NCBI GenBank assembly: GCA_025362295.1
Contig: JANYGX010000007.1
Coordinates: 1 to 64,000 of the forward strand
Length of the DNA: 64,000 bases
DNA from: Sphingomonadales bacterium
GTDB taxonomy: Bacteria; Pseudomonadota; Alphaproteobacteria; Sphingomonadales; Sphingomonadaceae
Direction: 5' to 3'
How positions within the stretch are numbered: the first letter of the stretch is position 1; every line of letters begins with the position of its first letter. The position numbers and the translations under genes are program-made. This document shows positions 12,814 to 48,030 of this stretch, piece by piece. Under the pieces are notes generated by a model that had not been told where the DNA came from, did no database searches, and saw only the letters and a list, made by a program, of their open reading frames with translations.

Positions 12814-13818
12814 ATGAGTGTACTTGTCACCGGCGTTGCCGGATTTATCGGTTTCAATGTGGCCAGAGCCTTGCTGGCGCGTGGTGAAAGCGTGATCGGG
12901 ATTGATTGTGTCAATCATTATTATGACCCAAAACTGAAACAGGCACGGCTTGATCATCTAAACACCACCCACCACACGGCGTTTCATTTTGAGCGGGTAG
13001 ATTTTGCCGATATGGCGGCACTGAACGTGGCTCTTGCACCCCACAGCTTTGACCGCGTGGTGCATCTGGGGGCGCAAGCCGGTGTACGCTATTCGATCAC
13101 CAATCCGGAAGCTTATGTGCAAAGTAACCTTGTAGGCCATCTCAACATACTTGAAATCTGCCGCCGTGCGGATGTGCGTAATCTGGTCTATGCGTCTTCC
13201 TCCTCTGTCTACGGTAAAAACCAGCTGCCGAAAACCGGCTTTTCTGTCGACCACAGGGTGGATCAGCCAATCTCGCTCTATGCCGCGACAAAAAAAGCTG
13301 ACGAACTGATGAGTGAAACCTATGCGCATCTCTACCGCTTGCCGCAAACCGGCTTGCGGTTTTTCACTGTCTACGGTCCTTGGGGCAGGCCTGACATGGC
13401 GATGTGGCTGTTTGCCGACGCGATTATGAAGGGCAGACCCATCGATGTGTTTGGCGAAGGCAATATGCGGCGGGATTTTACCTATATCGATGATATCGTT
13501 GCTGGCGTTATGGCTTGTGTTGATAACCCCGCACCAGACGATGGGGCGGCGAAAGCCGGTGGCTCAATCTCGCCGCACCGGCTCTATAACATTGGCAACC
13601 ACCGCTCGGAAGAACTGATGCACATGATCAGCCTCATCGAAACATCTATCGGCAAGAAAGCCGTGCTCAACCTGCTTCCCATGCAGCCCGGCGATGTGCG
13701 TGATACGTTTGCTGACATCACAGCCATCCAGAACGATCTTGGCTATCACCCTACAACCTCGATTGATGAGGGCGTGCCCAAATTTATCGACTGGTTTAAA
13801 TCATATCATGGGCTGTAA
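12814..13818 (+). CDS. NAD-dependent epimerase, UDP-glucuronate 4-epimerase type
   Basis: Extended short-chain dehydrogenase/epimerase, 334 aa. The NAD motif is VTGVAGFIGFNVA at the N-terminus, the catalytic tyrosine and lysine are in SLYAATKKADELM, and the serine is in YASSSSVYG. The segments VIGIDCVNHYYDPKLKQARL and LRFFTVYGPWGRPDMA are characteristic of UDP-glucuronate 4-epimerases (LpsL/CapI), which make UDP-galacturonate for lipopolysaccharide or capsule. No other sugar genes adjoin it. It is convergent with mutL, with only about 50 nt between. The exact sugar cannot be read from sequence. Confidence 0.9.
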   Translation: MSVLVTGVAGFIGFNVARALLARGESVIGIDCVNHYYDPKLKQARLDHLNTTHHTAFHFERVDFADMAALNVALAPHSFDRVVHLGAQAGVRYSITNPEAYVQSNLVGHLNILEICRRADVRNLVYASSSSVYGKNQLPKTGFSVDHRVDQPISLYAATKKADELMSETYAHLYRLPQTGLRFFTVYGPWGRPDMAMWLFADAIMKGRPIDVFGEGNMRRDFTYIDDIVAGVMACVDNPAPDDGAAKAGGSISPHRLYNIGNHRSEELMHMISLIETSIGKKAVLNLLPMQPGDVRDTFADITAIQNDLGYHPTTSIDEGVPKFIDWFKSYHGL

Positions 13819-13871
13819 GCCTTACTCTCAAGCTTGAAAAGTGGGCCGTGGTCGGACTTTGCTATGTTGGT

Positions 13872-15644
13872 TTACCGCCGGCCAAATAATTTTTCAAGAT
13901 CCGTGCGACCCAGTTTGATGTAAGTCGGCCTGCCATGGTTGCATTGGCCAGAATGCGGCGTTATTTCCATTTCGCGGAGCAGGGCATTCATTTCATCGGC
14001 ATTGAGATGGCGTCCGGCGCGCACCGAGCCGTGGCAAGCCATGGTGCCGCTGATAGAATCCAGTTTTTCCTTCAGTGACAAGGCTGTGCCATAGCTTGCA
14101 AGTTCATCGGCCAGATCGCGTATTAACCCCGAAATATCTGTCTGGCCGAGCATGGCTGGCTGTTCACGCACGATAACAGCGCAGTGGCCGAAGCGCTCGA
14201 TCACCAGGCCAAGCTCGGCAAGTTCGTGCGACCGATCTTCAAGCCCGGCAGCGGTAGCTTCATCGAGATCAACCACAATGGGTGACAGCAGCACCTGTCG
14301 CTTGATGCCATGCTCTGCAAGTGATTTTTTCATCCGCTCGTGCACCAGCCGCTCGTGTGCCGCGTGCTGATCAACAATCACCAGGCCATCTTTGGCTTCC
14401 GCGACAATATAGGTGTTGTGAATTTGGCCGCGTGCTATGCCAAGTGGGAAATCTGTTTCTGCTTCAATCGCTGTAATGCTCGTGATGCGGCCTGAGGGTG
14501 CAGCATTGTAGGCGAGCGACATCTCCGACATCTGCGCCGTAAACACAGGGGGTGCATGGTGGCCCCAGCCACTCGCGTTGCCAGATGCGCGCACCGGCGA
14601 TGTGCCGGTTTCAAATGCCCCAAGTGCGGCTGTCGATGTTGTGGTTGATGATTTGTGGCCAGCGCGCGCCAGCGTTTCCCTGAGGCCGCCAACAATCATG
14701 CCGCGCACCAGCCCGGCATTTTCAAAACGGACCTCGGCCTTGGCAGGGTGAACGTTCACATCAACGAAACTATTGGGGCAATTGATGAACAGCGCCAGCA
14801 CCGGAAACCGATCCCGCGCCAGAAAATCCTGATAGGCACCGCGAACGGCCCCCAGCAGCAAGCGGTCTCGCACGGGCCGCCCGTTCACAAAAAGATATTG
14901 ATGGTCAGCGACACCGCGGTTGAAAGTCGGCAAGCCGGCAAAGCCGGTGAGGTTTAGTTCATCGCGGTTCACTTGAACGACAAGCGCATTGTCCGCAAAA
15001 TCAGGCCCCAGAACTGAGGCCAAACGCGCTAGGCCGTTCGCCATATCGGGGCTTGCCCGAAACAGGCTGCGACCCTCGGTCTCAATGTCGAAACGCACCT
15101 GTGGGTGCACCATGGCCAACCGCTTGACATGATCGAGACACAGGCCCTGTTCACTGCGTTCACTTTTCAGGAACTTGAACCGCGCGGGTATGCGCTCGAA
15201 GAGTGCCTCGACACTCACCCGCGTGCCCTGCTCCATGGCGCAGGGTTCGGCGGCCCCCGCCACGCCGTTATCAACAACAATCCGCCAGCCCTGCGCGGCC
15301 TCGCGTGGCCTTGACGCTAGGGTTAACCGCGATACTGAGGCAATGGACGGTAAAGCCTCACCGCGAAAACCAAGGGTTTTGATCAAACTCAGATCATCAT
15401 CAGGCAGTTTTGATGTTGCATGACGTTCCAGGGCCAGCTGCATTTCGCTAAGGCCCATCCCACAGCCATTATCATGGACTGAAACCAAGCTGCGGCCACC
15501 GGCTTTAAGGCTCACAGCAATATGCGTTGCACCAGCATCAAGGGCGTTTTCCACCAGCTCTTTCAGGGCACTGGCAGGCCTCTCCACCACTTCGCCCGCT
15601 GCAATGCGGTTGATCAGGGTCTCGGGCAAACGCCGGATGGTCAT
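13872..15644 (-). CDS. mutL: DNA mismatch repair protein MutL
   Basis: MutL couples mismatch recognition by MutS to strand incision. The protein is 590 aa. The GHKL ATPase N-terminus is complete: ETLINRIAAGEVVERPASAL, the Mg-binding Asn in ELVENALDAGA, DNGCGM, and TLGFRGEALPSI. The C-terminal dimerisation domain has QIHNTYIVAEAKDGLVIVDQ, HAAHERLVHE, then ACHGSVRAGR and NHGRPT. The DQHAAHERLVHE segment is close to the DQHA-x2-E-x4-E endonuclease motif, as in MutL of bacteria without MutH. ATG 15644 (MTIRRLP) is preferred over 15707. It is divergent from the photolyase operon. Confidence 0.97.
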   Translation of the reverse strand: MTIRRLPETLINRIAAGEVVERPASALKELVENALDAGATHIAVSLKAGGRSLVSVHDNGCGMGLSEMQLALERHATSKLPDDDLSLIKTLGFRGEALPSIASVSRLTLASRPREAAQGWRIVVDNGVAGAAEPCAMEQGTRVSVEALFERIPARFKFLKSERSEQGLCLDHVKRLAMVHPQVRFDIETEGRSLFRASPDMANGLARLASVLGPDFADNALVVQVNRDELNLTGFAGLPTFNRGVADHQYLFVNGRPVRDRLLLGAVRGAYQDFLARDRFPVLALFINCPNSFVDVNVHPAKAEVRFENAGLVRGMIVGGLRETLARAGHKSSTTTSTAALGAFETGTSPVRASGNASGWGHHAPPVFTAQMSEMSLAYNAAPSGRITSITAIEAETDFPLGIARGQIHNTYIVAEAKDGLVIVDQHAAHERLVHERMKKSLAEHGIKRQVLLSPIVVDLDEATAAGLEDRSHELAELGLVIERFGHCAVIVREQPAMLGQTDISGLIRDLADELASYGTALSLKEKLDSISGTMACHGSVRAGRHLNADEMNALLREMEITPHSGQCNHGRPTYIKLGRTDLEKLFGRR

Positions 15645-44166: not shown

Positions 44167-44321
44167 GGTTCATGGCCTCCTTGTTTGATATATTGGCTTT
44201 GTTTCTTGATATATGTCCAGACTCAGTTATGCCGACTCTTTGTTCACAGGGGTGAAACAAAAAGGCATTAGAAACACTGAATTCGGGATTTGTAAGATTG
44301 TTATATAACCAGATCGGCAAT

Positions 44322-45491
44322 ATGTCAAGCGATTCTTTTTCGATACCCAAGCCAGTTTATCCTTTGCGCGACGCTTGGCTGTTACGTCTGGCGGGCTACG
44401 CTTTGGTTTTATTAATCATTTACGGCAGTCTGGTGCATTTCGATTTCACCGCCAATCCAAGGCTGCGCCTTTACAAACTGGTCAGCTGGCCACGCTGGAA
44501 CCCTGAGGACATCATCGAGAACATCGCTGCCCTCATCCCAGTCGGGCTGCTGTTTGGCGCGCAGGACAAGCGCGACTGGCGGCTGACCGATTACGGCCTG
44601 ACGGCACTCATCTGCATTCTGCTGCAGGTGGCCCAGCTCTGGCTGCCGGAACGTGACCCACGCTTTTCAGATGCGTTCTGGAACATCATCGGTTTGGTGG
44701 GCGGCCTTGTCTTTGCCCGCGCGCTGCACGGCCTTAGGCGCTGGCCGGGGGCACCAGAGCCACTGACCACAGCGCTGGCCATTGCGTTTCTCGGCCATAT
44801 CACCCTGGTCGCTTTGGTGGCACGCGGTTGGAGCATGGCCGGCGACCAGTTCCAGCTGCAACGCGACTGGGTTCAGGACGGTGTCTGGCTCAGCCTGGCC
44901 CGCTTTGCCGTAGGCGGTTTTGCCGTTGCCGGTTTGCTTGGTCTTGGCCGCACAGCAACAGCGCTGGCAACCCCGGCCAGCCGTATTGCCATTCTGGTGC
45001 TGCTCCTCTGCGCTGTACTGCTGCGTCTGGACCGCTGGCACGAGCATTATCTTGCGGCGCTTGCAATGATCGTCGGTGCCATCGCCTGCGTTTGCCTGCC
45101 GCGCAGCCGTGTGCCGCTGGCGGTTGCCGGTGTTGTGGTTCTGGTGACGCTATGGGACGGTATGACGCCCTGGCAACTGATCCACCAGCCGATGCAGTGG
45201 CAACCATTCCACAGCCTGATCGAAGCCCCGTCTGTGCCACTGATTGCCACCATGGCATGGAAGCTGTTTGCCTGGAGCACGCTCGCTTGGGCCGCAACCG
45301 AAACAGACGCATCACGGTGGTTCACCATTCTGCTCCCGACCGGCCTTGCCGCCACCCTTGAACTTTTGCAAACTGTGGTCGCCAGCGGGTCGCCGGATGT
45401 TTCCGATCCGCTGCTCGCCGGGCTTATGGCTGGCATTGTTATTCTCGTGCACGATCCGGCACACCCTCAAAACCGAAGGACAACCCCATGA
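44322..45491 (+). CDS. VanZ-like polytopic membrane protein
   Basis: Integral membrane protein (389 aa) with about ten hydrophobic segments. Two VanZ-like cores are visible: PEDIIENIAALIPVGLLFG with a later RFSDAFWNIIGLVGG near the N-terminus, and a second, weaker one at LELLQTVVASGSPDVSDPLL near the C-terminus (VanZ signature: N-then-G and D-x2-x-N). VanZ-type proteins are linked to teicoplanin resistance in Gram-positives; in proteobacteria the role is unknown. ATG 44322 is taken over a TTG at 44298. It is coupled to the LOG-family gene by a 4-nt overlap. Confidence 0.75.
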   Translation: MSSDSFSIPKPVYPLRDAWLLRLAGYALVLLIIYGSLVHFDFTANPRLRLYKLVSWPRWNPEDIIENIAALIPVGLLFGAQDKRDWRLTDYGLTALICILLQVAQLWLPERDPRFSDAFWNIIGLVGGLVFARALHGLRRWPGAPEPLTTALAIAFLGHITLVALVARGWSMAGDQFQLQRDWVQDGVWLSLARFAVGGFAVAGLLGLGRTATALATPASRIAILVLLLCAVLLRLDRWHEHYLAALAMIVGAIACVCLPRSRVPLAVAGVVVLVTLWDGMTPWQLIHQPMQWQPFHSLIEAPSVPLIATMAWKLFAWSTLAWAATETDASRWFTILLPTGLAATLELLQTVVASGSPDVSDPLLAGLMAGIVILVHDPAHPQNRRTTP

Positions 45492-46297
45492 CCAGCGAGC
45501 ACGAGCCAGCCCACCGGATTTATCCATCGGCCAGCGATTCAGCTGAGCATGCGAGTCACAGCACAGCCACACCGCAAACGCTGAGCCCCAGCTACAAACT
45601 GGCGTTTGCCGACCTGGACTTTTTGCTGCGGGAAGATTTACGGCCCGTGCGCTTCCAGCTCGAACTGATGAAGCCAGAACTCTACATGAAAGAGCGCGGC
45701 ATTGGTTCGACCGTGGTATTTTATGGGTCAGCCCGCATTCCGGAATCCGGCCATGCCCTGTCGCACTATTATACAGAGGCACGCACGCTGGCGCGATTAC
45801 TGTCGCAGCTGCCACAACAGGATAGCCTGCGGCACTTTGTGGTGATGTCCGGCGGCGGCCCGTCAATCATGGAAGCGGCCAACCGCGGTGCCCACGATGT
45901 CGGCGCACCCTCGGTTGCGCTTAATATCGTGTTGCCGCACGAGCAGGCCCCCAATGAATATGTGACACCGGAGCTGTCGTTCCAATTTCATTATTTTGCC
46001 TTGCGCAAGATGCATTTTCTCATGCGTGCCAAAGCCCTGTGTGTGCTTCCCGGTGGCTTTGGCACCTTTGACGAAATGTTTGAAACACTGACGCTCATTC
46101 AAACCGGCAAGATCGACCCGATCCCGATTTTTCTGTTTGGCAAGGCGTTCTGGACCACCGTCGTTAACTTTGACGCGCTGGTAAGCTATGGTGTTATCAG
46201 CACCGATGATCTCAAGCTGTTCCACTTTGTCGAAACCGCTGAGGAAGCGTTTGACTCCCTTGTGCAGTTCTATAACCTGAGCCGATCAGAAAAATAA
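45488..46297 (+). CDS. LOG-family nucleotide hydrolase (cytokinin-type phosphoribohydrolase)
   Basis: LOG family protein (269 aa) of the lysine-decarboxylase-like fold; LOG enzymes cleave the base from nucleoside 5'-monophosphates. The signature PGGFGTFDEMFETLT is complete, and the other half-site VVMSGGGPSIMEAANRGA and the segment FHYFALRKMHFLMRA are present. An N-terminal ~70-residue extension precedes the core. The start overlaps the VanZ-like stop by 4 nt, so the two are co-translated. The substrate (AMP, IMP or cytokinin nucleotide) is not decidable from sequence. Confidence 0.88.
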   Translation: MTSEHEPAHRIYPSASDSAEHASHSTATPQTLSPSYKLAFADLDFLLREDLRPVRFQLELMKPELYMKERGIGSTVVFYGSARIPESGHALSHYYTEARTLARLLSQLPQQDSLRHFVVMSGGGPSIMEAANRGAHDVGAPSVALNIVLPHEQAPNEYVTPELSFQFHYFALRKMHFLMRAKALCVLPGGFGTFDEMFETLTLIQTGKIDPIPIFLFGKAFWTTVVNFDALVSYGVISTDDLKLFHFVETAEEAFDSLVQFYNLSRSEK

Positions 46298-46639
46298 TGA
46301 TGGGCAAATATTCTATACTATGGCTGTTCTCCGTCTGCACGAAAGCCGGCAAGGACGAATGATATTTTTTAGCAATAGTGTATAAATTTGGGACATAACT
46401 GTCGGTTGAACTGACACTCACACCAGCACAGTTTTTTCACCTATCATTTTTACCATGTATTTTTACGATACCGATGCACCAAAACGCCTGCTTGTCACAA
46501 AACTGAAATCATCAACCCCCATTAAGCATTTTGATATGGTGTGGCGTTGTTGAGTGCATGAGTCTGGCATGTGTTATGCTCTACTTTTTTTGAATTCTGT
46601 GTCCTCACTTCAATCACACAATAAAAAAAGGAAGCAACC
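46298..46639 (+). other. 342-nt gene-free interval upstream of the PEP-CTERM gene
   Basis: No coding region was found. The segment is AT-rich compared with its neighbours, has several T-runs (for example around 46429-46434 and 46583-46589) and ends in a good ribosome-binding site (AGGAAG, 46629-46634). It holds the sigma-54-like site listed separately, so its length may accommodate upstream activator binding. Confidence 0.5.
46565..46580 (+). promoter_or_regulatory. Candidate sigma-54 (RpoN) promoter of the PEP-CTERM gene
   Basis: TGGCATGTGTTATGCT aligns with the -24/-12 consensus TGGCAYR-N4-TTGCW, with one mismatch (A for the first T of TTGC) and exact GG-to-GC spacing. Transcription would start about 12 nt further on, leaving a leader of around 50 nt to the ATG at 46640. 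PEP-CTERM genes in other proteobacteria are known to be controlled by RpoN with the PrsK/PrsR pair. This is a by-eye match. Confidence 0.55.
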
Positions 46640-47347
46640 ATGTTTGTTAAGCCATCAAAATCCCTGTTCACACTGGCGGCTATCACACTTTCACTCTGTG
46701 CGGCGCAAACAGCGCGTGCGGCTTTGACGATTATTGACTTTAATGCCCAAAAAAATACAGCGCATCTAAGCCCGACAGCCAGTGCAGACACCAACAATTT
46801 CAGCTATACATCTTATGGTACAAACTATGCCTCAAACGGTTTTACATTCAGGAACTCGCACAACTCCAATGATGCCTTTCTTTCATGGAGCACCAACAGC
46901 CTTTTTAATGCTGACCACAACGGCGCTACGCTAGCGGTTAACTATGGCCATACATCGACCACCATCAGCCAGAACAATGGCAACCTTTTCAGTTTGCGTT
47001 CGCTGGATTTGGCGGATGTCTATAATGGTCTGGGTGAAACCCGTGGCGGCGCTGTCCGGCTGGATTTTACGACGCTTGCAGGCACCTCGTCCGAAATTGT
47101 CAACTTGTCCACGACATCTGGGCTGCACACATTTCTGTTAAACAAAAAAAATCTGCTCTCGTTTTCCGTCACTGGCATCGACACGCAAGGCGAGGGCTGG
47201 TTGCAGATGGATAATGTCAAAGTCTTTGGCACTGGCATTGCCGGCACTGTGCCGGAAGCGGCCACCTGGCTGATGATGCTGACTGGCTTTGCCTGTGCAG
47301 GCGGTGCGTTGCGCCGACGCGAGCAACTCGTGCTGGCGGCACATTAA
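46640..47347 (+). CDS. PEP-CTERM-like exported protein
   Basis: Secreted protein of 235 aa. The signal peptide has a basic start, the core FTLAAITLSLCAAQ and a cut near ARA-ALT. The mature part is Asn/Ser/Thr-rich with beta-strand character (residues ~28-195), a typical extracellular composition. The C-terminus VPEAATWLMMLTGFACAGGA then RRRE is a sorting signal of the PEPxxWA subclass: motif, hydrophobic helix, arginines. An exosortase cleaves such signals at the inner membrane. The canonical PEP is PEA here, and 7 residues (QLVLAAH) trail the arginines. The stop overlaps that of gph on the other strand. No exosortase lies in the window. Confidence 0.82.
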   Translation: MFVKPSKSLFTLAAITLSLCAAQTARAALTIIDFNAQKNTAHLSPTASADTNNFSYTSYGTNYASNGFTFRNSHNSNDAFLSWSTNSLFNADHNGATLAVNYGHTSTTISQNNGNLFSLRSLDLADVYNGLGETRGGAVRLDFTTLAGTSSEIVNLSTTSGLHTFLLNKKNLLSFSVTGIDTQGEGWLQMDNVKVFGTGIAGTVPEAATWLMMLTGFACAGGALRRREQLVLAAH

Positions 47348-48030
47348 CGCCGTTTGCTGTGCACGCGCGTGACCGCGTCCAGCGCATCGTTGTAATGGTC
47401 AATCACGGCCTCGGCACCAAACGCGGTGGCGGGAATATGCGAGAAGCCAAAGCTGACAGCCACAATCGGAACATGTGCCGCTTTTGCGGTGTTCACATCG
47501 ACCATGGAATCACCCAGCATAACGGTTTGATCGGCTGACACCCCCAAACGGTCGATGGTGGTTAGAAGATGTAACGGGTCAGGTTTGCGAACGGCAAGGC
47601 TGTCGGCACCAAGGTTCACATCAAAATAATGATCGAGCTGCAGCGTCTTGATCAGCGCCACGCTCATCGCCACGGGTTTGTTGGTGCAGATGCCAAGCAC
47701 GATATTGGCGGCCTTCAGCTTTTCAAGAAAGGCAACCACACCCGGGTAAGTTTGCGAATAGAGACACACATTGGCGGCATAATAGTCGATGAAAGCCGGA
47801 TAGAGCGCCTCCACCTGTTCAGGCGTGCTGTCGCCGGTATGCGAAAGGCCAAGGTCAAGCAACTTGCGGGCCCCAAGACCGATCATGTCCCGCACAGTTC
47901 GCAAGGCAACCGGTGGACGGCCAACCAGAGACAGGCAGTGGTTGAGGGCAGCTGTCAAATCAGGGCCGGTATCAACCAGCGTGCCATCGAGGTCAAACAC
48001 CACGGCGGCGGGTAAGTGACGCGTATCCAT
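47344..48030 (-). CDS. gph: Phosphoglycolate phosphatase (HAD family)
   Basis: HAD hydrolase (228 aa) that dephosphorylates 2-phosphoglycolate from DNA repair and oxygenase side reactions. Motif I is AVVFDLDGTLVDTGPDLTAA with the nucleophilic Asp, motif II is GICTNKPVAMS, and motifs III/IV are KPDPLHLL and VMLGDSMVDVNTAKAA. The cap domain between motifs I and II is the Gph kind. It is convergent with the PEP-CTERM gene, their stop codons overlapping by 3 nt, and divergent from glmU. Confidence 0.92.
   Translation of the reverse strand: MDTRHLPAAVVFDLDGTLVDTGPDLTAALNHCLSLVGRPPVALRTVRDMIGLGARKLLDLGLSHTGDSTPEQVEALYPAFIDYYAANVCLYSQTYPGVVAFLEKLKAANIVLGICTNKPVAMSVALIKTLQLDHYFDVNLGADSLAVRKPDPLHLLTTIDRLGVSADQTVMLGDSMVDVNTAKAAHVPIVAVSFGFSHIPATAFGAEAVIDHYNDALDAVTRVHSKRR

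Follow-up and report, generated by a model that had tools for sequence, protein, structure and literature searches.

Described Systems and the Locus Compared with Them

The closest described arrangement is the PEP-CTERM box of Haft et al. (2006), which joins motif 1, a 17-nt PrsR element ending in TTTACA, to motif 2, a sigma-54 site; the spacer measures 62.8 ± 10.6 nt (32-92), and motif 2 lies 71 ± 38.5 nt (23-221) from the gene start (PMC1569441). Control of PEP-CTERM genes by PrsK, PrsR and sigma-54 was predicted there for Proteobacteria including Rhodospirillum rubrum; the original prediction, too, named PEP-CTERM systems of other proteobacteria as known to use RpoN with PrsK/PrsR. As for experimental work, it is reported that pepA of Aquincola tertiaricarbonis is RpoN1-dependent, with a mapped start and the -24/-12 site TGGCAC / CTGCTT (PMC9850573), and that five predicted PEP-CTERM targets of Desulfovibrio vulgaris DVUA0057 were enriched in DAP-chip (PMC3333781). 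The general principle of PrsR/RpoN control of PEP-CTERM genes is already known. Within the open-licence PMC literature, no paper was found for "PEPxxWA-CTERM", nor for PEP-CTERM together with Sphingomonas and exosortase.

The locus considered here lies in a 64,000-nt stretch of Sphingomonadales DNA, hereafter the window. Like pepA of A. tertiaricarbonis, its PEP-CTERM gene stands behind a -24/-12 site; pepA, however, is a classical PEP-CTERM gene (TIGR02595) with a mapped start and demonstrated RpoN dependence, whereas the window gene is of the PEPxxWA variant and its promoter is predicted from sequence. DVUA0057 is, like the PrsR proposed here, a sigma-54-type response regulator controlling PEP-CTERM genes; its target binding has been shown, while the PrsR site in the window is a sequence-based prediction. 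Like the box of Haft et al., the window has the sigma-54 site closely before a PEP-CTERM gene and a large intergenic region, and its genome has PrsK, PrsR, PrsT, exosortase and both motifs at six other genes; unlike in that box, motif 1 is missing from the 32-92 nt before the window's sigma-54 site, and the best candidates, which are degenerate, stand 148 and 169 nt upstream of it. The site is read here, with about even confidence, as an atypical sigma-54 promoter of the PEP-CTERM regulon, most likely activated by PrsR from distal dyads.

The Promoter Candidate and Its Gene

The features of the promoter and the gene are the following:

46298..46639, + strand, intergenic region of 342 nt (from the ORF list)
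46565..46580, + strand, sigma-54 -24/-12 promoter candidate TGGCATGTGTTATGCT, a consensus match of the TGGCAT[A/G] form
about 46629..46635, + strand, probable ribosome binding site, aaggaag, as read from the letters
46640..47347, + strand, gene for a 235-aa, probably secreted protein with a PEPxxWA-CTERM signal of the VPEAATW variant (NF035944, 40 bits, cut-off 35)
47249..47320, + strand, PEPxxWA-CTERM sorting signal (43.1 bits)

Regarding the promoter candidate, its GG (46566-67) and GC (46578-79) are 12 bp apart, with 10 bp between them, as the -24/-12 elements demand. The single mismatch and right spacing originally claimed are borne out against TGGCAY-N5-TTGCW; against TGGCACR-N4-TTGCW there are two mismatches (C6>T and T12>A), and the motif-2 matrix score of 14.5 is below that of 23 of the 24 training sites. 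The site ends 59 nt 5' of the ATG at 46640, inside both the 71 ± 38.5 nt and the 23-221 nt given by Haft et al., and does stand directly upstream of a PEP-CTERM gene, since that gene is over the NF035944 cut-off. With the Pfam PEP-CTERM model the same gene scored 16.9 bits in the protein scan, under the cut-off of 20.7, and 21.1 bits in the genome scan, just over it. The protein has a signal-peptide-like stretch at its N-terminus (by eye) and ends in the signal VPEAATWLMMLTGFACAGGALRRRE, in which the second P is replaced by A (a "PEA" variant). Just 5' of the intergenic region, the gene of a VanZ-like protein (44298-45491) overlaps a TIGR00730/LOG-family gene (45488-46297). Rfam gave no match at gathering score within 46200-46800.

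A serious rival, judged somewhat unlikely, is that TGGCATGTGTTATGCT is a chance match lying over a weak extended -10 promoter, and that a housekeeping sigma factor transcribes the gene. Part of the site, TGTTATGCT, matches an extended -10 element as well (TGnTATnnT), and a weak TTGAGT precedes it by 19 nt (both by eye). A consensus scan of 46250-47450, with a spacing limit of 16-18 nt that would miss this 19-nt arrangement, found no sigma-70-like promoter on the + strand and one on the - strand, the empty + strand counting against a housekeeping promoter. In favour of the rival, the window as a whole is not enriched in sigma-54-like sites (43 at up to two mismatches, versus 39.4 expected), so the string alone proves nothing. 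Its position is another matter: TGGCAYN6TGCW occurs 83 times on both strands of the 2.59 Mb genome, hence 0.0055 occurrences are expected on the sense strand of the 342-nt upstream region, which makes the position unusual and argues against chance, as do the right orientation and distance and the TGGCAT[A/G] form, which the six remaining sigma-54 sites of this genome's PEP-CTERM genes share.

When the 83 sites were classified with a simple longest-ORF caller, 16 were intergenic, 50 were sense within coding sequence and 17 were antisense. Twelve of the 16 intergenic ones, the window's included, stand before PEP-CTERM, flagellar or psp-like genes or have a PrsR box: seven precede PEP-CTERM genes (again with the window's), one, with a PrsR box, the gene of a 92-aa protein, two flagellin genes, one a flgK-like gene and one a pspA-like gene (Pfam), whose start is about 240 nt beyond the site. 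As for the others, one precedes a CoxS-like gene (by eye) and one a further gene, while no gene follows within 320 nt of the last two.

Regulatory and Sorting Machinery

The genome scan proposed with the original prediction found all the parts it named: rpoN is present in a single copy, adjoining hpf- and ptsN-like ORFs (neighbours by eye), together with PrsK, PrsR and two exosortases, so that the objection foreseen there, a genome lacking rpoN or exosortase, falls away. XrtA is over its cut-off and lies in an exopolysaccharide cluster; the second exosortase is XrtV/XrtB-like (309.8 versus the XrtV cut-off of 313; 273.6 versus the XrtB cut-off of 275), and a protein encoded near it has a sorting signal that resembles that of the window protein. 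EpsB_2, PrsK, PrsR and PrsT adjoin one another on contig 23, with 545, 629, 679 and 568 bits (cut-offs 393.35, 300, 502.6 and 312.2, respectively); TIGR02916, TIGR02915 and TIGR02917 are all over cut-off in the genome. This second exosortase (L050, 6148-7113, - strand) and a PEASTW-type PEPxxWA protein (13612-14346, - strand) are encoded in the same exopolysaccharide cluster; the latter, like the window protein, has A in place of the second P.

The genome also encodes other sigma-54 activators: NtrC, NtrX and PspF are over cut-off, a FlbD-like protein is just under it (729.9 bits, cut-off 750), and a sigma-54 response regulator with NtrC-like halves is divided between two overlapping ORFs on contig 37 (L054, 3895-5351, - strand), a frameshift that is either real or from the assembly. 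It is improbable, but conceivable, that the window promoter is a real sigma-54 promoter served by one of these rather than by PrsR. Besides their presence, such a reading draws on the lack of a canonical PrsR box at the window site and, for FlbD, on two half elements of a flagellin-promoter repeat upstream (GGCAA at 46303 and CGGCAA at 46347). The full GGCA-N5-TGCC repeat is, however, absent from the window promoter, while three copies precede the L016 flagellin gene and one the L015 gene, and facing halves precede the L032 flagellin gene; these repeats may be the FlbD sites. Against any other activator, the window site reads TGGCAT where the flagellin, flgK-like and pspA-like sites read TGGCAC, and each of the six further sigma-54 promoters of PEP-CTERM genes has motif 1. 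PrsR appears the likeliest activator of the window promoter. At L015, on contig 2, the frame behind TGGCATGGTTTCTGCT encodes 216 aa, and the GGCAAATTTTGCC repeat, of the kind seen before the flagellin gene, is 109 nt upstream.

The Same Promoter Type Elsewhere in the Genome

Ten PEP-CTERM genes were found in the genome with Pfam, and TGGCAYN6TGCW stands upstream of seven of them, the window gene included, against about 0.05 (0.048) expected; without the window gene, the count is six of nine. Six of those seven promoters also have a PrsR box (motif 1, TGTCGG-N5-TTTACA type) 51-87 nt further up, two of them on contig 30 and the others on contigs 2, 16, 3 and 17. Their motif-1 scores range from 10.8 to 19.1, and two of the six boxes have variant ends (CTTACA, ATTACA); on the two strands of the window taken together (128 kb), only six sites reached 10.8 or more, as counted from the match list. 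The search for the same site before other PEP-CTERM genes, which had been suggested as a check, therefore returned the sigma-54 site with a PrsR box at six of the nine others. The pattern is lacking before three PEP-CTERM genes: C23 on contig 23, this genome's other PEPxxWA gene, whose lack of a site counts against the regulon reading of the window promoter, one gene on contig 3 and one on contig 13.

The motif-1 matrix was built from 23 promoters of other genomes, 21 of which were used and two, scoring below 0, dropped. It replaced a first matrix whose selection forced TTTACA, and it allows other ends; it remains biased towards TTTACA, many source promoters having been fetched through that pattern. 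The rebuilt motif starts with TGTC, continues purine-rich and ends in TTTACA. Independently of any matrix, TTTACA-N46-76-TGGCAYN6TGCW has five matches in the genome, of which one falls within a reading frame; the reversed TTTACA/sigma-54 pattern has none.

Sigma-54/PrsR control in this genome is well supported, and because of the genome-wide pattern before other PEP-CTERM genes the window site, too, is probably real; for the window gene itself, such control is moderately supported. The proposal that the same control operates in this alphaproteobacterium thus stands for the genome, through the machinery and the six of nine other genes with both motifs; at the window gene, the sigma-54 half alone is clear. 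The result is a candidate PrsR/RpoN regulon for a Sphingomonadales-like genome, with six PEP-CTERM genes that have both motifs, one atypical member and one non-PEP member.

The non-PEP promoter lies on contig 16 (28900-32000, L118), where a PrsR-type box at 640-746, with motif 1 TGTCGCGGTATTTTACA, 74 nt and then TGGCATGAACTGTGCA, precedes the 92-aa ORF; its product looks like a membrane protein, with no Pfam match and no PEP-CTERM signal by eye. On contig 13 (L182), the DNA upstream of the 1045-aa PEP-CTERM ORF holds two sites that resemble motif 1 (12.4 and 12.8), both on the other strand, and no sigma-54 pattern. The boxes at L104, L109, L125 and L133 have in common a TAAC-N3-TTGA-like element between motif 1 and motif 2, which we take to resemble an IHF site.

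Motif 1 and the Distal Dyads of the Window Promoter

At 31-95 nt 5' of the window sigma-54 site no motif 1 was found, the best matrix score being -5.0; the PEP-CTERM box rule, by which motif 1 precedes motif 2 by 32-92 nt, does not hold for this promoter, a point in favour of a chance match. AACGCCTGCTTGTCACA (46483-46499), at canonical spacing and tempting by eye, was ruled out by that best score in the range. Two candidates lie further upstream:

46379..46395, strand not assigned, second candidate dyad TGTATAAATTTGGGACA, 169 nt upstream and 21 bp from the first (score 8.0 on the - strand)
46400..46416, + strand, candidate distal PrsR-type dyad TGTCGGTTGAACTGACA, 148 nt 5' of the -24 element (matrix score 7.2)

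Both are TGT-N11-ACA dyads. Among shuffles of the region, 12% reached a score of 7.2 on the + strand and 20% did so when both strands were scored, so that the dyads are not above chance, and the distance of 148 nt exceeds the maximum of 92 of Haft et al.; a pair of such dyads occurred in 0.28% of region shuffles, in a test chosen after the dyads had been seen. Pairs spaced 17-32 bp occur twice in 342 kb of DNA of this genome, the window pair included.

If the window promoter is the atypical member of the regulon proposed above, RpoN-RNA polymerase would bind the GG and GC, with a start near 46590-46593. Upon signals from PrsK, phosphorylated PrsR would activate the promoter, binding the degenerate dyads at 46379-46416 instead of the usual position at 50-90 nt; after export, an exosortase would cut the C-terminal signal of the protein, which would then be delivered to the envelope or exopolysaccharide. 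The likelihoods given here to this reading and to its two rivals are judgements, with no computed posterior. More tentatively, PrsR, whose system is named for XrtA-type PEP-CTERM genes, might also switch on a PEPxxWA gene through the distal dyad pair, one sensor kinase thereby tying together two exosortase/exopolysaccharide systems. Should the window gene prove PrsR-dependent, the PEP-CTERM box would tolerate looser spacing than described and PEPxxWA proteins could join an XrtA-linked regulon.

Homologues and PEPxxWA Genes in Other Genomes

The full 235-aa protein had a match in 12 of 58 relatives and in three of 16 named PrsR genomes, mostly to its C-terminal part; identity was 25-32% in the few matches that extended further. 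When the sorting signal was left out of the query, a homologue was found in three of 396 other genomes of the family, with 34-38% identity, too distant for the upstream DNA to be aligned, and footprinting on orthologues was therefore rejected. The strict sigma-54 pattern was absent from either strand of all four homologue loci in these three genomes, which favours a chance match in the window.

The survey of PEPxxWA genes points the same way, most of those examined being without the site. It started from the 37 loci returned by two protein searches; two were dropped for short upstream sequence, and one of the 35 examined was C23, leaving 34 in other genomes. A sigma-54 site precedes two of the 34, both in genome G017 (L068 and L078), although the L068 site falls 73 nt into the longest reading frame and would count only with a later start codon. 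In these two promoters, motif 1 lies 43 and 53 nt from the sigma-54 site; having both motifs, they suggest that PEPxxWA genes can join the regulon, rarely. G017 itself had no TIGR02915 match at E 1e-150.

As for PrsR in general, TIGR02915 was over cut-off in 37 of the 59 genomes of the relatives search, the genome under study included. R. rubrum is itself an alphaproteobacterium. Since it was among the organisms of the 2006 prediction, and given those 37 of 59 genomes, sigma-54/PrsR control in an alphaproteobacterium is not new. The organism was placed through a search of named genomes for its PrsR: within the best 80 of 416 places, the highest-ranking ones were for the most part in Sphingomonadales (Novosphingobium, Sphingobium, Erythrobacter and others).
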